This document shows, piece by piece, positions 2,249 to 15,644 of a DNA stretch of 64,000 nt (positions are counted from its first letter, which is position 1; each line of letters opens with the position of its first letter). The DNA is from Deltaproteobacteria bacterium (GTDB taxonomy: Bacteria; Desulfobacterota; Dissulfuribacteria; Dissulfuribacterales; DYLC01): the NCBI GenBank assembly GCA_028695735.1, contig JAQVIJ010000001.1, positions 237,081-301,080 of the forward strand, given 5' to 3'. Below the pieces are notes generated by a model. The model was given only the letters and a program-made list of their open reading frames with translations. It was not told the DNA's origin and ran no database searches. A program made the translations under genes and the position numbers.

Positions 2249-2635
2249 CTATCTATCTACAAACTCCACGAGAATATTATCAGGCCGCTGACTCAGGTTG
2301 GTAAGATTGACGGATGTCTCGAAATAGCCCTTTGTGCCATGGGCAAACGGTGCGCCGTTGTTCACAGAGGTCTCCACTGCCAAAACCACATCCCCACCCT
2401 TTTTGAGATAGATGATCACATACCCCTTGGCCAGGCTCTGGCTCTGGTTTTCCACATTACCGCTTACGGTCAAAATGGTCTTTTCCGAATGGGAGTATGC
2501 TGTGAGGTCCACTATGGCAAAACGAGGGGAGGCAAAGGTCATGGGTTGTTCCTGAACACCGGCTTCGCCCTGCAGAAAGACAAAAGGCACCACCACACAT
2601 ATAATACCAAGCAATAACAACACAATTTTACGCAT
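2249..2635 (-). CDS. Small exported protein of unknown function
   Basis: N-terminal hydrophobic signal MRKIVLLLLGIICVVVPFVFLQ; co-directional with the exported-protein run. Confidence 0.6.
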   Translation of the reverse strand: MRKIVLLLLGIICVVVPFVFLQGEAGVQEQPMTFASPRFAIVDLTAYSHSEKTILTVSGNVENQSQSLAKGYVIIYLKKGGDVVLAVETSVNNGAPFAHGTKGYFETSVNLTNLSQRPDNILVEFVDR

Positions 2636-2637
2636 AG

Positions 2638-3834
2638 TTATCTCCCCTTTCTGCCGGCCTTAAAAGCTGTACCATAGCTTGCCCTGATGGTATTGCCGTG
2701 GACCTCCTGAATTTTCAGACCTGGTATGGAGGTAAGCATTTCAGCAAGCCTTTGAGTGTTGCAATCCCGCCAGCCCACAAGCAACTCTGCCCTGTTTTGC
2801 AAAAAGCCCTTCTTGTTGACACGAAGGACTCCCCTGATCCCCGATATACTCGTTTGAAGGGCGCTAATTTCCTCAAAAGAGAGGCCATCCACCACCAAGG
2901 CCACCTCATGTTCATTATAACAGGCGTCCAACCAGACCTTGACCACCTTGGATGACAGGTCGTTGGCTATCTTTTTGGCCGCCTCTTGGGATGCCTTTAG
3001 TGCACCTTGCGCAAAACTGATATTGGGGACATTGGCGTCTGCAGAGGCAGTGGCCAGCATGCGGCCTGAGCCAGTCTCATAGAGCTTGGCAGTGAGGAAG
3101 GCGCCATAGGAATGGATACGAGGGTTATAGGGGGCAGGGCCGTTGTCCTGCATCACCAACTGACATGCCACCATGAGCTGCGCCAGATGGGATGCTGCCT
3201 CTACGGCCTGAGTCAGGGCGCTCGCACCCGATTGGGCGGCCAGGGCCACCTGACGCAGCCTCTCTGCCTCCAATGCAGATGGTTCTGCTATGCGAAAGCC
3301 CTTTTCACTTAGAATCTGAACTATGGTCTGCTCTGCTGCGCCCACATCCAGCTGTACACCGCCCATCTCGCTGGTCATGGCCTTTTGCGTCACTGTGACC
3401 ACCAGGGTGGGATAATTCATCCGGGGCAATACATGGGCCAAAGCAGTTATATCGTCCGCCAAGGCCGCCTCCTCCACCTCTGCCTGAATCACCACCTCGT
3501 AGTCTGTACCGGTTCGTCCCTCGGACAATATCTTGTAATTCTTCACATAACCTTGAACCTTGGTGAGTATCTTGTCCTGAATGACCACATAATTCTCCAC
3601 CAATGTCTCACTGGTGAGCATGGCGCCTATGGCCTGTTCCACGGCCTTTCGCATGGCATCGTTTAGGGCTGTGGTGCGGGCATCCGCCTCGCTTACGCCC
3701 TGAAGGCTGGCCATGCCTTTGGCCTGTACAGCGGCCCATGCCCCCCCTGAAAAGCAGAACAGCATTCCAAAGGCCAGAAGGGCCAAACATAACCTCATAG
3801 GATTAAAGGCAAACAGGGCTGTGCGGTTCATCAT
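2638..3834 (-). CDS. Exported FlgT-N/LPP20-like protein
   Basis: Signal peptide; motif AVEQAIGAMLTSETLVENYVVIQDKILTKVQGYVKNYKI shared with ORFs 6305-7672 and 11681-12427 and resembling FlgT N-terminal domains. Start taken at MMNR after AGAGG. Confidence 0.7.
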   Translation of the reverse strand: MMNRTALFAFNPMRLCLALLAFGMLFCFSGGAWAAVQAKGMASLQGVSEADARTTALNDAMRKAVEQAIGAMLTSETLVENYVVIQDKILTKVQGYVKNYKILSEGRTGTDYEVVIQAEVEEAALADDITALAHVLPRMNYPTLVVTVTQKAMTSEMGGVQLDVGAAEQTIVQILSEKGFRIAEPSALEAERLRQVALAAQSGASALTQAVEAASHLAQLMVACQLVMQDNGPAPYNPRIHSYGAFLTAKLYETGSGRMLATASADANVPNISFAQGALKASQEAAKKIANDLSSKVVKVWLDACYNEHEVALVVDGLSFEEISALQTSISGIRGVLRVNKKGFLQNRAELLVGWRDCNTQRLAEMLTSIPGLKIQEVHGNTIRASYGTAFKAGRKGR

Positions 3835-3845
3835 GTCTTCACCTC

Positions 3846-4484
3846 TCATTTCAGTCTGCGCAGCAACACCGCAACAGCGCTTCTAATGGCCCTGTTGGCG
3901 GCATCGCTCACATCTGCTCCAAATTCCACTGCGCTTCCAGGCACATACTCCAGGGTCTCCACATCCACACAACGCACCTGCACCCCCATGCGCACATGGG
4001 AGCTTCTTTGGGCGCTGAGGCCTGCCACTCGCTCTCCTCCCTCTGCATAGTCATAGACCTCGCCGTAAATCACCTTTTTCGCCCCTAACATGCGCCCCAT
4101 GGAGACGGCTGTAGCCTGGTCCACCATGCCTGCTGAACTCATCCACTGCCGGTCCATTATATCCTTGATGATCTCGGGCTTTTCCTCCACAAAGGTAAAA
4201 CGATTGCTGTCATACAGGGATTCCACCACCATGTTGTGAATACCCATACCCACGGACTTGTCCAGGAGGTGCGGGTAACGCTTGGCTGCCTGTTCAGAAA
4301 GGCCTAATGGAAGGACTGCCACAACTGTTTTGGGCCCGGTGTAGGTGGGCATGGGTGTGGCCTGAGTCAGGGGCTGCGTCTTGGAGGTGGAATCATCCTG
4401 TACATATGTGCCTGCGCAGCCGAAAAAAAGCCAGAGGCACATCATCATCGTTCCCAGTTCCAGTACTTTTTTTATGCCTTTCAT
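3846..4484 (-). CDS. CsgG-like lipoprotein
   Basis: Lipoprotein-type N-terminus (CLWLFFGCAG); TVVAVLPLG...DKSVGMGIHNMVVESLYDSNRFTFVEEKPEI...LGAKKVIYGEVYDY matches the CsgG/TolB-N-like pattern. RBS GGGAGGAAGG. Confidence 0.7.
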   Translation of the reverse strand: MKGIKKVLELGTMMMCLWLFFGCAGTYVQDDSTSKTQPLTQATPMPTYTGPKTVVAVLPLGLSEQAAKRYPHLLDKSVGMGIHNMVVESLYDSNRFTFVEEKPEIIKDIMDRQWMSSAGMVDQATAVSMGRMLGAKKVIYGEVYDYAEGGERVAGLSAQRSSHVRMGVQVRCVDVETLEYVPGSAVEFGADVSDAANRAIRSAVAVLLRRLK

Positions 4485-5380
4485 TCCCTTCCTCCCACTT
4501 TGCACAGGTTGGCCACCGCCTGTTTTACGGCCTTTTGAGTGGCCTGTCCCACTGTAGTCTCGTCAAAACAGATGCGATTGTCTCGAATCTGAAATAGGGC
4601 AGCAAGGGAGGTGGTAGTGGCCTCGCCCTTGGCCACGCCCCGATAGCATGCCCCATCCTTCTCTTCCACCAATACCTCTACCTCCAGCTCTATGGTGGTA
4701 GAGCCGCCGGATATGAAACCAATGGTGCGCACCCGCCGTGTCTTGAAGCCCCTTACAACTACCTTGGCCACGGCATCGCAACCAAAGCGTTCAAACACGG
4801 ACACAGGCTTGGCCTCAGGCACACCTGCCGCCTGTCCGGTATTTTCAGTATTTGATGTCTCTTCCTGCGGTTCCTTTTGGCCATCCTGCATCTTTTCCCC
4901 TTGAGAAGATTCATCTTGAGGCTTAACATCAGGGGATTTAGCGGCTTCGTCAGAAGACACCTGTGGTGAATTACCTTCCTGCACCTTGGCAACATCATTA
5001 GATGGCTGTGGCTTATTTTCAGGCACTTGAGCGACCCCAGCAGAAGCAGACCTCCCCGAAGTCCCTGCGTCAAATCCCTTGCCAAGCCAGCTCAAGGCCT
5101 GAAGCTCGTTTAATTCCTGAAGGACCTCAGGTTTTTCTTCAATGGGTGCGTAGTGTCCGGTATTATAGAGTTCAGTGGCCACCAGATTTGCAATGCCCAG
5201 GGCAATCAACTGATTGCGCCATTCAGGGCTTCCGGTCTCGTCGCGCACATCCACCACCACCAGGCGTTTTAAGCCAGGGGCAGTGTTTGATTCAGCATCT
5301 GCTGCCCATAGATATGGTGCAATCAGGCTGCTAAGACAACAGAAGAGGGTAACCCAAACCCAAAGACATATTCCCTTCAC
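4481..5380 (-). CDS. CsgG-like exported protein with a low-complexity insertion
   Basis: Signal peptide; RLVVVDVRDETGSPEWRNQLIALGIANLVATELYNTGHYAPIEEKPEVLQEL parallels the neighbouring CsgG-like ORF; C-terminal half resumes after a Glu/Ser/Pro/Lys/Gln-rich stretch. Confidence 0.6.
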   Translation of the reverse strand: MKGICLWVWVTLFCCLSSLIAPYLWAADAESNTAPGLKRLVVVDVRDETGSPEWRNQLIALGIANLVATELYNTGHYAPIEEKPEVLQELNELQALSWLGKGFDAGTSGRSASAGVAQVPENKPQPSNDVAKVQEGNSPQVSSDEAAKSPDVKPQDESSQGEKMQDGQKEPQEETSNTENTGQAAGVPEAKPVSVFERFGCDAVAKVVVRGFKTRRVRTIGFISGGSTTIELEVEVLVEEKDGACYRGVAKGEATTTSLAALFQIRDNRICFDETTVGQATQKAVKQAVANLCKVGGRE

Positions 5381-5479
5381 AACGACCTGCCTCTCAAATG
5401 GTATATCAGGGGGGAGACCCTGGTTTATACTCGGTCTCCCCGGTCATTTGACACATCAACATTCCCTCTAACATCACGG

Positions 5480-6241
5480 TTATTTGTGTCTAGCATCTAT
5501 CTCAGCCACGCACTTCTGCACCAGTCTTTGCACCATGGTGTCCAGCGTCACGGTCTTCTGCTGGGATTGAGAGATGCCGAGCACACTGGTGGAGCCGGCA
5601 TTCAACTCCATCTTGTCCTCGAAGTAACCGGTGGCCACCTGTTCACTGGTATTGGCATTCAATATCTTGTAGCGCATGCCGATGATCCACACGCCGGCGG
5701 CATCTTCAGTCCGTACAGAGGAGACGGCTGTGTCTGTAACAGCACCACCACGGCCACCCATCAGGGTCCCTGCAATGGAACCCAATGCAGCGCCATTAAA
5801 GCCCTTTGTGGCCTGAGCCACAGGCTCGGCCTTCAGGATGTCAAATTTCACGAACCACTGAGTGGACTGGAACTTACCCTTTTTGAACTTCTTAAGGGCA
5901 TTGGGGTCTCCCATGTTAACAGCCAGTTTGATCTCGTCCAGCATGGGCCCCAGGTCAGACCTTTCCAATATCTTGAAATTGGCCTTGCTCAATTCCAGCT
6001 CAGCATAATCAGCCACATTGTTGCTGCTCACCTTCTGCGTAAAGGTGGCGTTGTTACTCTTGATCTCACCGGGTATGACCACCAATTGCGGGCCAGGTTT
6101 TGAGGCATTGACATAAGAAATCGGTTGATACATCATCTGGTCGGCCTGCTGGTTGGCCGTCTCAGAGGCCGATTGCTGCGGTGGCACACAGCCTGACAAT
6201 AACAGCGCAAGACAAATCCCCAAAAAACCCATTCGTTTCAT
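5480..6241 (-). CDS. CsgG-like lipoprotein
   Basis: Lipobox LLLSGC; AELELSKANFKILERSDLGPMLDEIKLA and later YKILNANTSEQVATGYFEDKM are CsgG-like. Confidence 0.65.
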   Translation of the reverse strand: MKRMGFLGICLALLLSGCVPPQQSASETANQQADQMMYQPISYVNASKPGPQLVVIPGEIKSNNATFTQKVSSNNVADYAELELSKANFKILERSDLGPMLDEIKLAVNMGDPNALKKFKKGKFQSTQWFVKFDILKAEPVAQATKGFNGAALGSIAGTLMGGRGGAVTDTAVSSVRTEDAAGVWIIGMRYKILNANTSEQVATGYFEDKMELNAGSTSVLGISQSQQKTVTLDTMVQRLVQKCVAEIDARHK

Positions 6242-6304
6242 AACCTTTCTCCTTATTATTAGAATCTTGAGCCCATGAGGCCCAATTTAATACCTGAGGA
6301 TATA

Positions 6305-7672
6305 TCAAAAATTCTTTACAGCCTCTCTTCCTGCACTCGACACGGCTGGAGTGGTGGTGGACAACTGGGCTGTCATGGCCTCCACCTTCTTTTTGGTCTC
6401 CGGGCTCTTTGCCACCTCCTTCAGACGCTCCGGGCTGGCCTGCACAAGGGAGGCGGGAGGCATCTCCTCCATGGCCTTCAGAAGCTCCTGCTTGCCCTTG
6501 CCTGCGTAGGCTATCTCTATCACATCTCCATGGGATGCCGTGAGCCGAAAGGCATTGGCGCCCACCTTGGCATTGAGTGGCTTGAGAATGCCTTCATTTA
6601 CCACTGTGTTAAAATTGCCGCGCAGTCCAGCAAACTCAATCTCGAAAAGAGAGGGGCCGTTGGCCTGAAAATTCCTGAAATCAACATTTAATATGTTCCG
6701 AAGCCCAATAAACTCCTTTTTGAACAGCTCCGCTGTGTCATAGTCAGGCAGCCCTGTGAGTTTGAGCTGATATATGCGGCTTGGCTGCTGAAGATGGTCT
6801 GCAAAGAAGTCCCTGGAGAACTCAGAGCCTATCATTTTGCCGATCTCCTCAACGGCTGCGTCCTCGGAATTCCAGCTCTTTTTCTGTGGGACCTTGTTGT
6901 TGAAGTATATCTCCTCTCCTGTATGTGTATTCACACACTTGACGCTCCAGGAGGTCAGGACAAACTTTTCGATGCGCACACCTGATGCAGGGAGCACATG
7001 ACTCAATCGCTGAAACTTTGCCTCTCCCTCGATGAGAAAATCAGACTGTTTGTCTTTGGAGTTGGTATCATCAGACCAGACCGTATAGCCAAAACCCTTT
7101 ATGTGTTCCTTCAGGACATTCTCTGCAACGCTTGAGCGTTCCTTGATATTGTCTGAACTCCTCTCAGCATCCTTCACAAATATCCGTACAGCAATCTTTG
7201 GATTGCCCTGCTCCTTGATTATGGATATACGCCGTTCTTTGGACAGATCCTGAATTGCGCTTTTGACATCACCTATATACACCTCAGCCTTCATCAGAAT
7301 GTGCATGAATCCGTCTTTACCTAACCAAGGCTCGCTTTCCTTTATGATTTCCTTGATCAGGCCCTGACTTTTTGACAACACCCTGTCATTAATGACTGTG
7401 TAATTCTCAACGAGCGTAGAACTATCCACATATACACCAACCGCCTTTTCTATAATCTGACGCCTTGCATCCTTTCTGAGATCGTCTATCATCAATCCTT
7501 TATCTTTTTTGTAAATCTCTGCGTTTGCATCCACCAAACCCTCAGCTGACACTATAATGGTTTTAGCAGATTCCTTTTCCTTTTGCTTCTGATTGTTTCC
7601 AGTTGCCGCAAGACTGGAACATGCTATCAAACACATAATGAGCAATAAAATTGATTGAATGCGTATTCTCAT
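6305..7672 (-). CDS. Exported FlgT-N/LPP20-like protein
   Basis: Signal peptide MRIRIQSILLLIMCLIACSSLA; RRQIIEKAVGVYVDSSTLVENYTVINDRVLSKSQGLIKE, same motif as the 2638-3834 protein. Internal ATG used as start. Confidence 0.7.
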   Translation of the reverse strand: MRIRIQSILLLIMCLIACSSLAATGNNQKQKEKESAKTIIVSAEGLVDANAEIYKKDKGLMIDDLRKDARRQIIEKAVGVYVDSSTLVENYTVINDRVLSKSQGLIKEIIKESEPWLGKDGFMHILMKAEVYIGDVKSAIQDLSKERRISIIKEQGNPKIAVRIFVKDAERSSDNIKERSSVAENVLKEHIKGFGYTVWSDDTNSKDKQSDFLIEGEAKFQRLSHVLPASGVRIEKFVLTSWSVKCVNTHTGEEIYFNNKVPQKKSWNSEDAAVEEIGKMIGSEFSRDFFADHLQQPSRIYQLKLTGLPDYDTAELFKKEFIGLRNILNVDFRNFQANGPSLFEIEFAGLRGNFNTVVNEGILKPLNAKVGANAFRLTASHGDVIEIAYAGKGKQELLKAMEEMPPASLVQASPERLKEVAKSPETKKKVEAMTAQLSTTTPAVSSAGREAVKNF

Positions 7673-7673
7673 A

Positions 7674-8363
7674 TCATTTCCTCTTTTTAGGGCTGGCCCT
7701 CGTGGGCTCGGGCTGACGGCAGTAGTCATGATATAATTTGGCCACGACCTCATCGGCCTTTTCATTGACGAGTTTCAGGGCGGTACCCACCACATCGCTT
7801 CCTGAATAGGATTCAGATGAGGTGGTGACGGTAGAGAGAATGCGTCCGGAGGCATCCGACAGGGTAAAGGTCATGGTGACCGCCACCTCCTTGACACCGA
7901 TGACAGGATTGACGCCCGTGTGGGCCACAATAACGCCCTTCAGAAGGAAGTTGGCGGCAAGCCTGCGCGCCGCTGTGATGGCGGCATCGGGATCTCCGCC
8001 AAGATAGGCCTCTATCTCGGCCTGGGCTATCTGTTTTTTGATCTGTTCTGGAGTATAGGTCTTGAGCCCAAGGGCACGGAGACGATTGTTGATGGCATCG
8101 AAAAACAGGCCGTAGTTGGACTGATCAGCGCGCATACGGCCACTGGCCTGTTCACCTATCATGATGCCGATCTTTTGATCCTTTAATTTAGACCGGCATG
8201 GTACACTGGTCAGCCATTGAATATGTGCAGCCCGCGCCTCCTCCTGCCCGCGTTCACTATCCTCGGCCTCAGAAAAGGAAAAGGCGTAAGCGGCCACAGG
8301 CAGGAACAGCGCACAAAAAACGATCCATCCAATCCATTTTTGGCTCAATGCACAACCCCCCAC
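7674..8363 (-). CDS. Exported protein, possible CsgG/FlgT-type ABD fold
   Basis: Signal peptide; KIGIMIGEQASGRMRADQSNYGLFFDAINNRLRALGLKTYTPEQIKKQI; co-directional in the cluster. Family assignment weak. Confidence 0.5.
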   Translation of the reverse strand: MGGCALSQKWIGWIVFCALFLPVAAYAFSFSEAEDSERGQEEARAAHIQWLTSVPCRSKLKDQKIGIMIGEQASGRMRADQSNYGLFFDAINNRLRALGLKTYTPEQIKKQIAQAEIEAYLGGDPDAAITAARRLAANFLLKGVIVAHTGVNPVIGVKEVAVTMTFTLSDASGRILSTVTTSSESYSGSDVVGTALKLVNEKADEVVAKLYHDYCRQPEPTRASPKKRK

Positions 8364-8466: not shown

Positions 8467-9393
8467 CTATTTCATCATCACAACCGAATTGACATTTGAA
8501 GTCTTTTTGCCTGCCGCTACGTTGGTTATATCCTCCGAACTGGAGACATTCGTAACCGATCTGACCTGTACATTCTCCAGGTCAACACTCCCCACATTGG
8601 CGTTTCCACCAGCAGCCGCCACGTTGACGACGTTTTTTACATCTGCCACATTGGTTACTGAACCCACCGCTGCATTCTTGAGGTTTACACTGCCCAAATT
8701 AGCTGTGGAATCGGCACCAATGGCCACGTTCGTACTGCGCTGCACATTGGCCACATTGGTGACCGAGCCGCTTACAGAAGACCCTTGAATATTGGTGGAG
8801 CCCACATTGGCTACCGCCCTGCTGCCTGCCGCTATGTTGGTTACCCCCTGTATGTTGGCCCTGTTGGTTACACTGCCTCCCACAGAGGAGTTTTGTATGT
8901 TGGTGGAGCCCATATTGGCCACAGCCCCCTGGCCCATGACAATGTTCTGAGAATTCCTCACATCGGCTATATTGGTAACACTACCTTTAACGGAAGAGCC
9001 CTCTATATTGGTGGAGGCCACGTTGGCGGTACTGCCTGCACCAGCGGCTATATTGGTAACACCGCGCACATTGGCCTTATTGGTGACCTTGCCCTTGACC
9101 TGAGAGGAACCTATGTTGATGGAACCGAGATTGGCCTTGGTCCCCTGGCCCATGGCAATGTTCTGGGCATTTTTAAGGTCCGCAATGTTGGTCACATCAC
9201 CCTTTACAGAAGAAGCCGCAATGCCTACGGAGGCAGCCTTGGCCACATTACCGGCGCCGCCTGCCGCTGCATTGGTAACATCCGCCACAACCGCCTGATT
9301 GGTTATATCGCCTGAACCGGTCTCTGCAGCGAATGCAGCAATACTCACACTCAAAGACACAATGCCAATCAGAATCAAGACATTAAACTTCAT
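8467..9393 (-). CDS. Exported 36-residue-repeat protein (candidate beta-solenoid/amyloid-like)
   Basis: Signal peptide MKFNVLILIGIVSLSVSIAAFA; recurring unit SSVKGSVTNxADVxxxxNIAxGxxxxANxGSxNIx. RBS GGAGG before the ATG at 9393. Confidence 0.8.
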   Translation of the reverse strand: MKFNVLILIGIVSLSVSIAAFAAETGSGDITNQAVVADVTNAAAGGAGNVAKAASVGIAASSVKGDVTNIADLKNAQNIAMGQGTKANLGSINIGSSQVKGKVTNKANVRGVTNIAAGAGSTANVASTNIEGSSVKGSVTNIADVRNSQNIVMGQGAVANMGSTNIQNSSVGGSVTNRANIQGVTNIAAGSRAVANVGSTNIQGSSVSGSVTNVANVQRSTNVAIGADSTANLGSVNLKNAAVGSVTNVADVKNVVNVAAAGGNANVGSVDLENVQVRSVTNVSSSEDITNVAAGKKTSNVNSVVMMK

Positions 9394-9440
9394 ATATAAC
9401 ACCTCCGCACACAGTCCCTGCGACACCAAGAATCATTGCA

Positions 9441-11021
9441 TTATTTATCCGATAGATCCGACGACCTATCGGAAAGTATCTTGTAACGCCGCAGGATATC
9501 AGGCCCTCTTCTGGATGCCTGCTCCCTATCAAGAATCAATCTATGCCCCTTACTGTCTTCGAACACATGAAATGCGCCCTTGTTGTTTTCTATCGCAGCT
9601 ATTACATCATTCAAATTACCTACATTGACTCCATTTACTGAGACAATAACTCCATCTAAGTATGTATGGTAACCTATATTGACATCATCAGCCAAAACTT
9701 TAGCCAGAATCACCACCTGCTTAAGCTTTTCAGATGGTTCACCATTTTCATAATAATTCAATAATTCAACCGGTGAATTTATGCGCCAATTGTCTTCATC
9801 TCCATATTCCTTCAGATAATTCAGAACAAGTGGAGTAAACACCAAACCTCCATATATATAATAAGTCGGCATATGGTCATACTGCATATTCGGCACGAGC
9901 CTTTCCATGCCTATGGCCTTGGTAAGAAGAATCGTAAAATGCTTCCTCTCACCATTGCGAACTATATCCACATTTACAGTATCCCCGATATGCTTCTGTT
10001 GCCAGATATATCCCAAAAAGGTCCTTTCGCCACGCCGGAACTCCACTGTGCCGTCCTCTTCAACAGCATATCCATCCAGCGCCACCACCACATCATCCTG
10101 AAAAATCAAACCCTCGGCAGGTGAATCAGGGAAAACCTTATTGACCAATGCGCCTGTTTCGCCAGGTTTCAGCCCAAAACGCTGTAAAAGGGCGGGATTT
10201 TCCATTTTTTGCATCTTGAGACCCAGCTCAGGGGTGCCGTGAAAGACCCCGTCCTTTTCAATATCTTGTAAAAAATGCTTAACGATGGAAGCCGGTATGA
10301 TGTATCCCACATTTTCAAATCCACGCTTCAGCATACCCTGGAATGCGACACCCACTACCTCATCACCCTTCAAAACAGGCCCGCCGCTGTTTCCGATATT
10401 GATAGAGGCATCGATCTGGCAGGCCAGCAGATATGCGCCGCTATGATTATAAACGATATGCTCTATGCGCGAGACCACTCCTTGAGTGATTCCCAAGCGG
10501 TCACCTCCCGCAGGGAAACCATACACCCCCACCTCATCACGAATTTCAGGCAGACTGCCTATGCGCAGCGGCACAATACCCTTAAAAAAATCTTCATCCT
10601 CAACCCTGAGCAATGCGAGGTCGGTTTCATGGGCTACATGTTCCACTCTGGCGGTATATTTGCGGGCCTGACCTGATTTTCGCACCTGCACAAAGGTCTG
10701 CCATGCAACTACATGGGCATTGGTCAGAATACGGTTGCCCTCTATAATGAAACCAGAGCCCTGCATGGATTGTTGCCCCTGCATCTGCCATGGTTCATGA
10801 AAATTTGCAGGGTTATAGGTGGAATAGACCTTTACGACGGCATCTTTTATGCTTTGAGCCTTGTCAAGGCTCAGACCTGTGGCCGCACAGGCATTTCCTG
10901 ACAGGCAGGCCGAAACCGGCAACAGCAATAGGACAATGGTGACGGCCGCAACGGCCCGAAGCATGCCCATACAGGCCACCGGCATACAGACAACCACCCT
11001 AAGAAAGAGGCTCGATATCAC
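9441..11021 (-). CDS. Exported trypsin-like serine protease with PDZ-like region (HtrA/DegP-like)
   Basis: Catalytic motifs TNAHVV (His), ETDLALLRV (Asp), GNSGGP (Ser); PDZ-like segments after the protease domain; N-terminal hydrophobic segment. Confidence 0.85.
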   Translation of the reverse strand: MISSLFLRVVVCMPVACMGMLRAVAAVTIVLLLLPVSACLSGNACAATGLSLDKAQSIKDAVVKVYSTYNPANFHEPWQMQGQQSMQGSGFIIEGNRILTNAHVVAWQTFVQVRKSGQARKYTARVEHVAHETDLALLRVEDEDFFKGIVPLRIGSLPEIRDEVGVYGFPAGGDRLGITQGVVSRIEHIVYNHSGAYLLACQIDASINIGNSGGPVLKGDEVVGVAFQGMLKRGFENVGYIIPASIVKHFLQDIEKDGVFHGTPELGLKMQKMENPALLQRFGLKPGETGALVNKVFPDSPAEGLIFQDDVVVALDGYAVEEDGTVEFRRGERTFLGYIWQQKHIGDTVNVDIVRNGERKHFTILLTKAIGMERLVPNMQYDHMPTYYIYGGLVFTPLVLNYLKEYGDEDNWRINSPVELLNYYENGEPSEKLKQVVILAKVLADDVNIGYHTYLDGVIVSVNGVNVGNLNDVIAAIENNKGAFHVFEDSKGHRLILDREQASRRGPDILRRYKILSDRSSDLSDK

Positions 11022-11715
11022 CGACGCCGGAAATCTTCTTTATTATCTTGGGGTTACCCCTGTATTGCACGGTCCCAGCCCCATCTACGGTGACATCCAG
11101 AAGTTTCACGGCGTGCACCACCGCCTCTCCAGCGCCGGTCATTTTAATGAATACATCATCAGCCCTAAGCCCCTCAGCCTTCACATCACCCGCACCCTTC
11201 ATATCTATCTGCAACCTTTGAACCCCACCTGAGAGGAAAACCGTACTGCTTCCGTCCATATCAAGGGTCAGATTATCCTTCAGGCCCTTCACATCAATAT
11301 CATTTGAACCATCCACCCTCAGCCTGTCCAGATGGACCATGGAAACCTTTACGGTCATGGGCGCACTTGTGCAGACTGAACGCCTTGTTCGAATGTAAAG
11401 GGTATCACCATCCACCTTGGTCTGAATATGAGGCACAATGTTCTCATCTGCTTCGATGGTAAGAGAAGGGGCGGACCCCGCCAGGATCTTTATATCGAAG
11501 GCCCCATCCGCCTGAATTTTAGAGACCGTTGAAGACATATCCCTTTTCTCTACCCTGGATACACCATTTCCCTCCACACAATTATTGCCTTGAATCACCA
11601 CAGCCATTCCATGAAATGGGAAAATCAAAAAACAAAGCAGGCAAAACGCGGTACAAAATACCCGTACCCCGTAATTCCCTTTATTTCTTCTGTTTGGATT
11701 TGCCGAAGTCATCAT
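10999..11715 (-). CDS. DUF2807 / head-GIN domain exported protein
   Basis: VSKIQADGAFDIKILAGSAPSLTIEADENIVPHIQTKVDGDTLYI...VDGSNDIDVKG...GAGDVKAEG pattern typical of GIN-domain autotransporter-adhesin-like proteins. Confidence 0.8.
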   Translation of the reverse strand: MMTSANPNRRNKGNYGVRVFCTAFCLLCFLIFPFHGMAVVIQGNNCVEGNGVSRVEKRDMSSTVSKIQADGAFDIKILAGSAPSLTIEADENIVPHIQTKVDGDTLYIRTRRSVCTSAPMTVKVSMVHLDRLRVDGSNDIDVKGLKDNLTLDMDGSSTVFLSGGVQRLQIDMKGAGDVKAEGLRADDVFIKMTGAGEAVVHAVKLLDVTVDGAGTVQYRGNPKIIKKISGVGDIEPLS

Positions 11716-12427
11716 CCTGGGCCCCCAAACCTTCAACTTCTATCATATCAGTATCCGACACGATCTTCTGACCCAACATATCCGACACATCACGCACATT
11801 CAAAACCATCTTGATGTAGGCATCGCCATTGGACTCCCATCCGAATTCTGTAATTTCAGCCAGAAAGAGTGTGGCCATAACCTTGGTGCGCACCACATCG
11901 GACTTTAACATATAATTTTCCACAGATGTCTCGCTCTCCAACTGGAACCCCACCAGCTGCTTCATAAGCTGCTTGTAGGCATCGATCTCAGCTGCACGCA
12001 ATGCCTTGAGAGGGCCTGCCTTTGATGGCGTGGATGTGCCGAAACCAACTCGTCTGAAGACCTTGTTGTTCAAGGGAATGACATCACCATTGACATTGGT
12101 TATCTGATCCAATGAAACACTGGCAACCGCCTTGGCGATATCCTGCTTGGGATCGTATGTAATCTCTTCGAATTTCACCCCTTTGAGCATGGCAGCGGTC
12201 TTGGACTCGGTCTTGCCCTCAAAATTTGCAGCCACCAGGTCCCTTACCTCTTCGGTAGCCCGCAATTTCAAACCATAGACGGTTTCCACCAGGGCACGTT
12301 CAGCGGTGACGCGAGCGGCATTGATGCTCATGATGCGGTTATTGCCGGCAACAGCCAGATTGGATACACATAACGCTGCTAACACCATCGCAATACTTAA
12401 GATCTTATGGGGAAATGATTGGCGCAT
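11681..12427 (-). CDS. Exported LPP20/FlgT-like protein
   Basis: Signal peptide; MKQLVGFQLESETSVENYMLKSDVVRTKVMATLFLAEI shares the G-x(6)-ET-VENY motif with two other ORFs in the cluster. Confidence 0.65.
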   Translation of the reverse strand: MRQSFPHKILSIAMVLAALCVSNLAVAGNNRIMSINAARVTAERALVETVYGLKLRATEEVRDLVAANFEGKTESKTAAMLKGVKFEEITYDPKQDIAKAVASVSLDQITNVNGDVIPLNNKVFRRVGFGTSTPSKAGPLKALRAAEIDAYKQLMKQLVGFQLESETSVENYMLKSDVVRTKVMATLFLAEITEFGWESNGDAYIKMVLNVRDVSDMLGQKIVSDTDMIEVEGLGAQDDDFGKSKQKK

Positions 12428-12950
12428 GGAGTTCCTCCTCTCTTATTGGAGTGGCAATCTGCCACCTGGATTTGTCATGATTAGTTAAAACGTAACGGCT
12501 TCCCAACCCGATGGACTCGTTTTTTACTTCTATCAAGCCTTGGGCCTGTATGTGAAATACGGGCCCAATGTCTTGCAGTTCTTCCCTTTTTTTTTCATAT
12601 CTTGTGGCCGTCTTTTTCTTTTGTGTGCCTGCTATATGGGCAGTTTTTCCCTTTATAGCAGGCTGTGATTGTGATATGTGGGGCAAGCGGATTGCTCCGC
12701 TGCCCTGCCTGACCTCCTGTTCAGTCACTCGAACCTCCGCCACTCCGTTTACATATCGCACATCTCCTTTGACGGAGATATGCCCGTCTTTGGGAACGGC
12801 TACCTGCGACAACGCCTTTGCGTTCAAGTCATTTAATTCCTTCACGGAATTATCGACCATAACCCTGTTCCCTGCATAAGCGGCCACAGACACAGAAAGG
12901 AACATGGCTGAGACCAAGAGTTGCACCGAATGTCTTTGAAAGATTTTCAT
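12405..12950 (-). CDS. Exported protein of unknown function
   Basis: Signal peptide MKIFQRHSVQLLVSAMFLSVSVAAYA; overlaps the next gene start; no recognised domain. Confidence 0.55.
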   Translation of the reverse strand: MKIFQRHSVQLLVSAMFLSVSVAAYAGNRVMVDNSVKELNDLNAKALSQVAVPKDGHISVKGDVRYVNGVAEVRVTEQEVRQGSGAIRLPHISQSQPAIKGKTAHIAGTQKKKTATRYEKKREELQDIGPVFHIQAQGLIEVKNESIGLGSRYVLTNHDKSRWQIATPIREEELHAPIISP

Positions 12951-12956
12951 GTCAGT

Positions 12957-14360
12957 TTACCAATCTGAATCACTCAGTATTCGGCCAATGGCCCTTGTAC
13001 TCTGAGTAGTAGGCCTTGCAGAGGCCGGCTGGGGCGCTGGAGCTGCCGCAACCGAAGCCTGGCGAGGCGCAGGCTGAGAAGCCGCCTTTGGAGCCGCTTG
13101 CATAGTGGTTTTGGGAGCAGATGCCTGTGGAGCTGGCGCTGCCTGAGGGGCAACTGCTACAGGTTGCTGTTGCGGAGCTGGCGCTGCAGGGGCAGGCTGA
13201 GGGGCTGCCTGTGCCTGTGGCACCACATCAGGCATCACCGCAGGACCACCCGCAGGTGCCTGACCGCCCGCAAGCATCAGTCTTCTTGCATAGGCGTTAT
13301 TGTCTATGGGAATAGTCATGTAGATCTTTGTCGCTGTCTCAACATCTATGGAGGGCCCGGCATTGGGGTTGAAGGTCCGCAGGGCATTCAATGTCCTTTG
13401 GTCCATAACGCCGTTCACTGGGACATCGTGACCATGCAGGAACAGCCATTCCTGCACCGCAGCTATGCGGTCCGGTTCAGACATCCTATAAAAACTCTTG
13501 GCGAATGCGGTCATAACCACATCATCCGGTAAGGCGTCATCGCCGAGCAGCCTCCAGTAAGGCAGCACCAAATGCTTGCCCACAATCTGTATCATACTGG
13601 CCTCCACCAGCAGACGGACGGCTGCATGGCGCCCCTGCACCTTTTTGATTGAACCCTTTCTGCCGAAGGATGCCCCGAAAAGTGTAATACCCAACTCCTT
13701 CTCCGCCATGGCCTTGTGTACCTCAATGCTGTTGGTGGTGTTCATTCGAGGGATACCTGCCATTGTTTTGAAATTAACAAGATTGAAATCCAACGTGATG
13801 CGTGAAAGCCCTGTTTTGTCCTCGTCTCTGTAATCAAATCCAACCTTGCTGGAAAGGTGCTTGGACACGTTAAAATCCGCCTCCATGCTGGCGTCATTGC
13901 CCTTACCCCTTGTTTCAAGCCCCCTGTCAAATTCAGTGATGCCACCAGTTACCACCACATCAGGAATCATCTTTGCATCAAAACTGGAGTATCCTGTCAC
14001 CATATTATTTTGTATAAAGGCAGGGTCATAGGGGATGTATATGACGTTTCCTCCAATGGCATTGAGGGAACTCTTGATCATCTCCGTGATATCACGGGGG
14101 ATCTCTCCACCAGTAGAACCAGAAGTGCCGGTATTGTCGCCGATGGGGTTGGCTTGTATCTTGAGCGCTCCGGTCCCGTATATCTCGGACATCAATCCCA
14201 GGTCCGAGAGGGCCTTGGTATAGGAAGTAACCTTTACCTGCGGCCCTGTCTCAGGCAGCTGGACATCCACCTTGGCAGGGTCTTCACATGACGCCAATAA
14301 AAAAAATGCGGCCAACACCAGCAATGGCCAACCTTTTCTCCCCTTGTTGGAATATATCAT
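12957..14360 (-). CDS. CsgG-like lipoprotein with peptidoglycan-binding-like segment and Ala/Pro/Gln-rich tail
   Basis: Lipobox FLLASC; CsgG-like body (IPDVVVTGGITEFDRG...ITLDFNLVNFKTMAGIPRMNTTNSIEVHK); AAVQEWLFLHGHDVPVNGVMDQRTLNALRTF resembles PG_binding_1; low-complexity C-terminus. Confidence 0.7.
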   Translation of the reverse strand: MIYSNKGRKGWPLLVLAAFFLLASCEDPAKVDVQLPETGPQVKVTSYTKALSDLGLMSEIYGTGALKIQANPIGDNTGTSGSTGGEIPRDITEMIKSSLNAIGGNVIYIPYDPAFIQNNMVTGYSSFDAKMIPDVVVTGGITEFDRGLETRGKGNDASMEADFNVSKHLSSKVGFDYRDEDKTGLSRITLDFNLVNFKTMAGIPRMNTTNSIEVHKAMAEKELGITLFGASFGRKGSIKKVQGRHAAVRLLVEASMIQIVGKHLVLPYWRLLGDDALPDDVVMTAFAKSFYRMSEPDRIAAVQEWLFLHGHDVPVNGVMDQRTLNALRTFNPNAGPSIDVETATKIYMTIPIDNNAYARRLMLAGGQAPAGGPAVMPDVVPQAQAAPQPAPAAPAPQQQPVAVAPQAAPAPQASAPKTTMQAAPKAASQPAPRQASVAAAPAPQPASARPTTQSTRAIGRILSDSDW

Positions 14361-14391: not shown

Positions 14392-14730
14392 TTATCTGTC
14401 TGTTACTACAGTTTTTTTGCCATGTCCTTCATCTATGATGTAGATATCTCTAATTTTTGAGCCAGCACCCACCAGGACGCTGTTTATATTGCCGCCCGTA
14501 GCTGCTGTTGCTGTATCTGTAGCGCTGGCCTTGCTGCCCCCACCTCCACTGGCAGCCGCCTTTGCCTTCATCTTTATGAAACTGATATTCTTTTCACTTT
14601 GGAATACCTGATCGCTTTTACTGATGGAGTCATCTGTATATTTGGAGATACCATCATCCATGTCATCCGCCATAGCAATGGATGCCCCAGCCAGAAAACA
14701 TAACCCTATTACTAACCAAAATACCTTCAT
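14392..14730 (-). CDS. Small exported Ala/Gly/Thr-rich protein
   Basis: Signal peptide MKVFWLVIGLCFLAGASIAMA; low-complexity AAASGGGGSKASATDTATAATGG core. Internal ATG at 14730 preferred over the ORF start. Confidence 0.6.
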   Translation of the reverse strand: MKVFWLVIGLCFLAGASIAMADDMDDGISKYTDDSISKSDQVFQSEKNISFIKMKAKAAASGGGGSKASATDTATAATGGNINSVLVGAGSKIRDIYIIDEGHGKKTVVTDR

Positions 14731-14816
14731 GTCAGGCTCCTGAAAGATATATATTAGGTAAGGGACAATATGCCCCTTACCTAATTCCATTACTGAAGCT
14801 TAATTCTCACACAAGC

Positions 14817-15644
14817 CTACTTTATGTCAACAGAGGCCATATCCGCTGTATTGCCAATACCCATAGCGACATTGGTTGCACCCTTGACATTGGCTTGATT
14901 GGTCACAGTGCCTTTTACATTGGAATTCTCGATATCCACCGAGCCCATGTTGGCCTTGTTGGCAATACCCATGGCAACATTGGTCGAACCCTTGATATCA
15001 GCCTTGTTGCTCACTGTGCCCTTAACATTGGATTTCTCGATGTCCACCGAGCCCATGTTGGCCTTGTTGGCAATACCCATGGCAACGTTGGTCGAACCCT
15101 TGATATCAGCCTTGTTGCTCACTGTGCCCTTGACATTGGATTCCTCTATGTTAACCGAGCCCATGTTGGCCTTGTTGGCAATGCCCATGGCAACGTTGGT
15201 CGAACCCTTGATGTTGGCCTGATTGCTCACTGTACCCTTGACATTGGATTTCTCGATATCTACCGAGCCCATGTTGGCCTTGTTGGCGATACCCATGGCG
15301 ACATTGGTCGAACCCTTGATATCAGCCTTGTTGCTAACTGTGCCTTTTACATTGGACTTCGCGATATCTACCGAGCCCATGTTGGCCTTGTTGGCAATAC
15401 CCATGGCAACGTTGGTCGAACCCTTGATGTTGGCCTGATTGCTCACCGTGCCCTTGACCTTAGAATCCTCAATGCCTACAGAGCCAACCCTCGCTTCATT
15501 GGCGATGCCCATGGCGACGTTGGTTGTGCCCGCCACATCCGCCTTGTTGCTCACCGTACCCTTCACATCAGATGCTGCAAAGGCCATGGAGGAACTTACC
15601 AAAAGAGCTGCCAAAACAAGAATCATTTTACCTTTCATTTTCAT
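14817..15644 (-). CDS. Exported 36-residue-repeat protein, 7 near-identical units
   Basis: Signal peptide then 7 units of NVKGTVSN(K/Q)A(D/N)IKGSTNVAMGIANKANMGSVDIE(K/N)S; paralogous to the 8467-9393 protein. Confidence 0.85.
   Translation of the reverse strand: MKMKGKMILVLAALLVSSSMAFAASDVKGTVSNKADVAGTTNVAMGIANEARVGSVGIEDSKVKGTVSNQANIKGSTNVAMGIANKANMGSVDIAKSNVKGTVSNKADIKGSTNVAMGIANKANMGSVDIEKSNVKGTVSNQANIKGSTNVAMGIANKANMGSVNIEESNVKGTVSNKADIKGSTNVAMGIANKANMGSVDIEKSNVKGTVSNKADIKGSTNVAMGIANKANMGSVDIENSNVKGTVTNQANVKGATNVAMGIGNTADMASVDIK
14820..15569 (-). repeat. Tandem 108-bp repeats (about 7 copies) inside the repeat-protein gene
   Basis: 108-nt units recur with high identity (e.g. ttggccttgttggcaatacccatggcaac[a/g]ttggtcgaacccttgat); encodes the 36-aa repeat. 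Confidence 0.9.

Follow-up and report, generated by a model that had tools for sequence, protein, structure and literature searches.

A gene cluster pairing a 36-residue repeat protein with a CsgG-fold lipoprotein, probably encoding bacterial surface fibres of a family not yet described

The gene for repeat protein 1 is the first of an ~13 kb operon on the minus strand of the window (the whole 64,000-nucleotide stretch of DNA analyzed). It is followed, in order, by genes for a small exported protein, a 467-amino acid lipoprotein, a 181-amino acid protein, a 248-amino acid protein, a GIN/DUF2807 protein, a DegP-like protease, and repeat protein 2. Beyond repeat protein 2 are seven more genes, including those for CsgG/LpoB-like and FlgT_N-like proteins. 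All 15 cluster genes, from repeat protein 1 down to position 2249, were scanned against Pfam. The features are as follows.

14817–15644, minus strand: repeat protein 1 (275 amino acids), putative fibre subunit; defined by open reading frame, Tandem Repeats Finder, unit census, and AF2 model
15465–15572, minus strand: unit 1 (diverged)
15357–15464, minus strand: unit 2
15249–15356, minus strand: unit 3
15141–15248, minus strand: unit 4
15033–15140, minus strand: unit 5
14925–15032, minus strand: unit 6
14820–14924, minus strand: unit 7 (diverged; 35 amino acids, with the stop codon at its end)
14753–14785, minus strand: 15-bp perfect stem-loop just after the repeat gene (z about -6), putative attenuator or 3' stabilizer
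14392–14790, minus strand: small exported protein, putative assembly factor; conserved, adjoining the CsgG-like gene (39 loci aligned)
12957–14360, minus strand: CsgG-fold outer-membrane lipoprotein, 467 amino acids (AF2 model and Foldseek)
12405–12950, minus strand: 181-amino acid exported protein, no assigned function; conserved in the operon
11681–12427, minus strand: 248-amino acid exported protein; strongly conserved in the operon (E 1e-80 to 1e-117 in other loci)
10999–11736, minus strand: exported DUF2807/GIN-domain β-protein; conserved in the operon (PF10988, E 1.1e-33)
9441–11021, minus strand: DegP-like periplasmic protease with PDZ domains; conserved in the operon (Trypsin_2, PDZ_2, PDZ_3)
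8467–9429, minus strand: repeat protein 2 (320 amino acids as called), eight degenerate units of 34–37 amino acids
2249–8363, minus strand: distal part of the cluster, seven genes
3846–4505 and 5480–6241, minus strand: CsgG/LpoB-like lipoproteins of the distal part
2638–3849, minus strand: FlgT_N protein of the distal part
2249–2635, minus strand: small protein of the distal part; directly upstream of the repeat gene in loci L007, L008, L011, and L047

Repeat protein 1 is composed of a signal peptide and seven 36-amino acid units, with nothing else and no caps. Its mature part is 251 amino acids in length (7 x 36 - 1), so that the C-terminus of the protein is the end of unit 7. The corresponding DNA array (14851–15568; period 108, 6.6 copies, 84% matches, score 895 in Tandem Repeats Finder) outscores every other array in the window by far. 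The sequence-only reading had described seven near-identical 36-amino acid repeats in an exported protein. The seven units and the signal peptide are borne out, as is the near-identity of units 2–6 (pairwise identity 83–96% in nucleotides and 86–100% in amino acids), but units 1 and 7 stand apart, with 61–75% amino acid identity to the other units. The xNxA motifs it pointed out (SNKA/SNQA, TNVA, and ANKA) are real. After the signal peptide the protein is devoid of F, W, Y, C, P, and H; aromatic residues are almost absent, and Cys is absent, across the repeat proteins of the other loci as well. The 36-amino acid regularity is not due to chance, as the same period is conserved in dozens of proteins from other genomes. 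Repeat protein 2 is 47% identical to repeat protein 1 and has a within-protein unit identity of 0.38.

Two Pfam families, Adap_comp_sub ("Adaptor complexes medium subunit", 36.5 bits) and Arg_tRNA_synt_N (30.8 bits), score above their curated cut-offs on repeat protein 1, yet these matches are spurious. NCBIfam matches of the penta, HetL, and histone-like kind are low-complexity or periodicity artefacts, and the pentapeptide repeat A(D/N)LXX scores 23.7 bits versus a curated cut-off of 125, with a period of 36. We rejected the Pfam and NCBIfam matches because they cover a single unit-length stretch or fall far below cut-off, and because relatives of the protein match differing, unrelated families. 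Such names would mislead automatic annotation.

The high nucleotide identity of the units had been taken as a sign of recent expansion or gene conversion. Pooled over units 2–6, dN is 0.039 and dS is 0.477 (dN/dS about 0.08, Nei-Gojobori), and units 3 and 5, whose protein sequences are identical, differ at synonymous sites (dS 0.45). With these dS values units 2–6 are not young, and recent expansion is rejected; gene conversion is likewise mostly unsupported. The low dN/dS indicates that purifying selection on the protein, rather than a recent burst, has kept the units nearly identical. Units are more alike within a protein than between species: identity within repeat protein 1 is 0.82 versus 0.68 to the best other species, and the corresponding values are 0.84 versus 0.38 for locus L025 and 0.83 versus 0.54 for locus L049. 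This lineage-specific homogenization would fit slow concerted evolution of the units.

A single scan of GTDB-species genomes with a profile of the CsgG-like lipoprotein yielded 47 loci, labelled Desulfobacterota, Nitrospirota, Gammaproteobacteria (Methylococcales), and a few others. The system is scattered over at least three bacterial phyla. In 42 of the 47 loci, the CsgG-like gene has a gene for 36-amino acid units just upstream of it; four of the remaining five are cut by a contig end (L006, L010, L038, and L050), and the fifth (L040) has a short upstream candidate left unscored by the profile. In the 42 loci an iterated unit profile, built from the window's own units yet reaching Methylococcales proteins of another phylum, found 2–25 units per protein with a period of 36 (mostly 35–40), the number of units differing freely between species. 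The linkage also holds in reverse: among 396 Desulfobacterota genomes the repeats occur in four, all four of which have the CsgG-like gene, which itself gives strong scores in only about eight of the 396. Occurrence is patchy within the window's own order too (3 of 41 genomes).

Most relatives consist of a signal of ~22 amino acids plus n x 36 residues and stop exactly at a unit boundary. Proteins of the Desulfobulbus type, whose units are ~20–27% alike within one protein, have 35 residues beyond the last scored unit, most simply read as one further, diverged unit; the long genes of L012–L020 and L051 have 48–50. In seven loci (L012, L014–L018, and L051) a gene with 9–25 units is followed by a gene with exactly seven units that adjoins the small exported protein, an arrangement that by analogy recalls a variable subunit and a fixed nucleator. 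Two or three tandem two-unit genes lie upstream of the CsgG-like gene in Methylococcales (L044, 6409–7530; L045, 6599–7530; L046, 4544–5644). A second upstream repeat protein occurs in Desulfobulbus-type loci (L034, 315–872; L036, 328–912; L056, 1–408) and has a GDNNQANAASIAI-type motif, in the form GGNNNQANAASIAM in L056. Small repeat-like proteins are also found near the more distant CsgG relatives L058–L060. Locus L007, from a MAG labelled Sulfurospirillaceae, has nearly the whole window cluster, with the repeat gene preceded by the distal p229, p486, p253, and p128; the cluster may have been transferred horizontally, or the contig may be misbinned.

The small exported protein (14392–14790) has a mature start of the form DxDDGI and a C-terminus of the form (N)SVxxGxGxxxxDIxIID. 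The start DLDDGI is conserved, with orthologues in 38 loci, and the C-terminal NSVILGxGxxIxGDIIIID resembles a single solenoid rung. The protein could be a cap, a nucleator, or a pore plug analogous to CsgF. The 248-amino acid protein is weakly related to the FlgT_N-type protein at 2638–3849, and its orthologues also match p403 weakly. The distal part (2249–8363) brings together several envelope proteins of CsgG, LpoB, and FlgT type in one cluster, with low sequence similarity.

The lipoprotein (12957–14360) has a lipobox cysteine, Cys25, that is invariant in 22 of 22 sequences, and its C-terminal part is helical and peptidoglycan-binding-like. It matches PF03783 with an E-value of 0.0016 (18.2 bits, just under the cut-off of 20.8 bits). 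The AF2 model has an overall pLDDT of 66.8, with low values at residues 148–184 and in the tail; a large share of the CsgG-like core and of the helical part, as far as about residue 370, is predicted fairly well. Searched against the PDB with Foldseek, this model has only CsgG pores as its best matches (E 1.6e-5, probability 1.00), among them the pore in its membrane-bound form and complexes of CsgG with CsgF; FlgT is also found, two orders of magnitude behind in E-value. CsgG was retrieved by this comparison of folds but not by a search of PDB sequences with the CsgG-like profile. As a point against an amyloid exporter, the CsgG fold is also present in proteins without a part in amyloid secretion, such as FlgT and LpoB.

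The sequence-only reading had suggested a β-solenoid or functional amyloid and proposed structure prediction of the mature protein. AF2, with eight homologues, gives a β-solenoid (mean pLDDT 91.9, 94–98 over the mature part, pTM 0.85) with one rung per unit. The same strand pattern recurs every 36 residues, each predicted rung having four strands of 4–8 residues. As AF2 is known to fold perfect repeats into solenoids that are false despite high confidence, typically with charged residues stacked in the interior (PMC11795689), we examined the positions of charged residues, with the inward positions picked from the AF2 model itself and from family conservation. Across 406 units, charged residues occupy 0.5% of inward and 34% of outward positions; in the divergent Desulfobulbus-type proteins, the values are 1.3% and 29.5%. 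The segregation of charge even in divergent natural sequences indicates that they follow the in/out alternation of a solenoid. The predicted one-rung-per-unit solenoid, this segregation, and the linkage to a CsgG-fold lipoprotein together lend support to the suggestion of an exported β-solenoid or functional amyloid.

No significant Foldseek match to the subunit model was found in the PDB (best E 0.08), and FapC is absent among the matches listed. The nearest non-significant matches include antifreeze and pentapeptide-repeat proteins. Searches of PDB sequences returned only weak pentapeptide-type repeat proteins for repeat protein 1 and no match for the 36-amino acid repeat profile. In the viral set, a phage protein named "curlin associated" (BFVD A0A6J5M3R0) matches the subunit model (E 4.3e-3, probability 0.85); it is the sole viral fold match with a probability above 0.5 among the matches listed.

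A strong hairpin is specific to the ends of the repeat genes. The 70 nucleotides after the repeat gene have a folding z below -4 in 19 of 45 cases that are not of the Desulfobulbus type. Among other gene ends of these operons the figure is 2 of 136, and among random windows 2 of 200. The long stems vary in sequence between species and keep their place. These features fit an attenuator or mRNA stabilizer that would raise the level of the subunit over that of the export genes.

Two secreted amyloid systems of Gram-negative bacteria have been studied in depth, curli and Fap. The minimal curli repeat is X6QXGX2NX10, about 23 amino acids in length, and the minimal Fap repeat is X15GX4NX3GX6NX7 (PMC3521004, PMC3792158). 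Neither is enriched among 409 units of the family, with 7 matches to the curli repeat versus 5.9 in shuffles and 1 match to the Fap repeat versus 3.2. In the whole genome, PF07012 (curlin) and PF10627 and PF10614 (CsgE and CsgF) are all absent, with a positive E. coli control. The system resembles curli in its CsgG-fold outer-membrane lipoprotein, its predicted uncapped repeat solenoid of variable copy number, and its subunit with, possibly, a nucleator paralogue. It differs in the repeat itself, which in curli is a two-strand arch of ~23 amino acids and here a predicted 36-amino acid rung of four strands.

The resemblance to Fap lies in the rung. Fap has imperfect repeats of 38–39 amino acids with one β-layer per repeat, and the FapC core motif is N-Psi-a-a-G-x-g-N-q-Q-N (PMC12392863). 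The window core N-V-A-M-G-I-A-N-K-A-N matches this motif in register, as aligned by eye; the FapC chain in the PDB has one extra residue before the last Asn relative to the printed motif. The GDNNQANAASIAI-type motif looks closer to the Fap NqQN than the window protein does and is possibly a bridge between the families. As a further likeness, many loci have a pair of paralogous repeat proteins in the operon. The 36-amino acid repeat profile retrieves no FapC from PDB sequences, and a FapC-like probe gave no match in plasmids. Unlike FapC, which has three repeats with linkers, the proteins here have 2–25 units without linkers, and the cluster has a CsgG-fold lipoprotein; no FapF barrel or FapD protease was recognized among the 15 cluster genes in the Pfam scan, which used no Fap HMM. 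The pentapeptide-repeat proteins are also β-solenoids and give weak profile matches through an Ala/Asn-rich periodicity, but the period here is 36 rather than 5 or 20, the proteins are exported, and the inward residues are spaced differently. In anatomy and prediction, the system has the general features of functional amyloids: stacked imperfect repeats, no caps, and, within one operon with them, a putative dedicated exporter of the outer membrane. As far as this anatomy shows, it appears to work like curli and Fap, and by their sequence definitions it is a member of neither.

Three other explanations have to be weighed against a secreted fibre. The repeat proteins may instead form short, SDS-resistant outer-membrane oligomers around a CsgG-like pore that tether polysaccharide or the cell, as do HfaA and HfaD with HfaB of the Caulobacter holdfast. 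HfaB is CsgG-like, HfaA forms heat- and SDS-resistant multimers, and surface targeting of HfaA depends on HfaB (PMC6707917); compared by description only, the HfaABD system shares with the window a CsgG-like pore protein and dedicated surface partners, one of which is amyloid-like (PMC6707917). The Methylococcales proteins, with only 2–3 units in up to three tandem genes, would suit such an anchor. However, many members have 7–25 units and no other domain, and the Pfam scan recognized no polysaccharide synthesis genes in the window cluster, where a polysaccharide holdfast is not indicated. We regard an anchor of this kind as improbable, and a secreted β-solenoid that stays monomeric, serving as a rigid spacer, coat, or adhesin, as somewhat less probable again. 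Many natural solenoids, such as antifreeze proteins, are monomeric, and a monomer would agree with the high-confidence AF2 monomer model and with the antifreeze and pentapeptide-repeat proteins among the nearest, non-significant Foldseek matches. Nearly all relatives, however, lack capping structures at both ends, and linkage to CsgG is typical of self-assembling substrates.

The presence of FlgT_N- and LpoB-like proteins in the cluster, along with FlgT below CsgG among the fold matches, raises the further prospect of an envelope complex related to FlgT/FlgO/FlgP and LpoB, with the repeat protein as a periplasmic scaffold and the CsgG-fold lipoproteins as ring parts rather than a pore. This seems highly unlikely, as the core conserved in 42 of 47 loci is made up of the repeat protein and the CsgG-like gene, distal genes of the FlgT/LpoB-like kind occur mainly in a few loci, and the E-value of CsgG is better than that of FlgT by the two orders of magnitude given above.

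We consider it likely that repeat protein 1 is a self-stacking β-solenoid fibre protein, similar to those of curli and Fap and exported by a CsgG-type pore, and the cluster probably encodes a so far undescribed surface-fibre family of bacteria. We base this on the repeat anatomy, the conserved linkage, the CsgG fold, the absence of caps, the in/out segregation of residues, and the position of the hairpin. The signal peptide would take repeat protein 1 across the inner membrane, after which the protein would be held unfolded in the periplasm and exported through the lipoprotein at 12957–14360, assembled as an oligomeric pore of the CsgG type. Outside the cell, each 36-amino acid unit would form one β-solenoid rung, and since neither end is capped, molecules could stack by their ends to build a long amyloid-like fibre. 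Through the hairpin, the cell would produce the subunit in larger amounts than the products of the secretion genes. Assembly and quality control would fall to the small exported protein, the DegP-like protease, and the GIN protein, and a role as nucleator or tip is possible for repeat protein 2. This scheme of secretion through the pore, fibre formation, and accessory roles is inferred, as is a function in adhesion or biofilm.

A literature search, with subscription journals and preprints outside its scope, found no description of this system. With modest confidence, we lean towards a third functional-amyloid family, which would combine a curli-type CsgG pore and a Fap-like 36-amino acid rung with accessory proteins and a regulatory hairpin of its own, and which would be patchily distributed in Desulfobacterota, Nitrospirota, and methanotrophic Gammaproteobacteria. 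Surveys of amyloids rely on the repeat signatures of curli and Fap (PMC10192328, PMC12392863), and the repeat proteins of the window type fall outside these signatures. The joining of a CsgG-type pore to a Fap-like rung bears on the question of a common origin for curli and Fap, and the long, linker-free, nearly perfect rungs are possible fibre building blocks. As the system is present in a named methanotroph, Methylotuvimicrobium buryatense 5G (L045), and in cultured Desulfobulbus strains (L031 and L033), it is open to experiment. If the proposal is true, it would account for a surface structure of biofilm bacteria of the sulfur and methane cycles that is nameless or misnamed in standard annotation.
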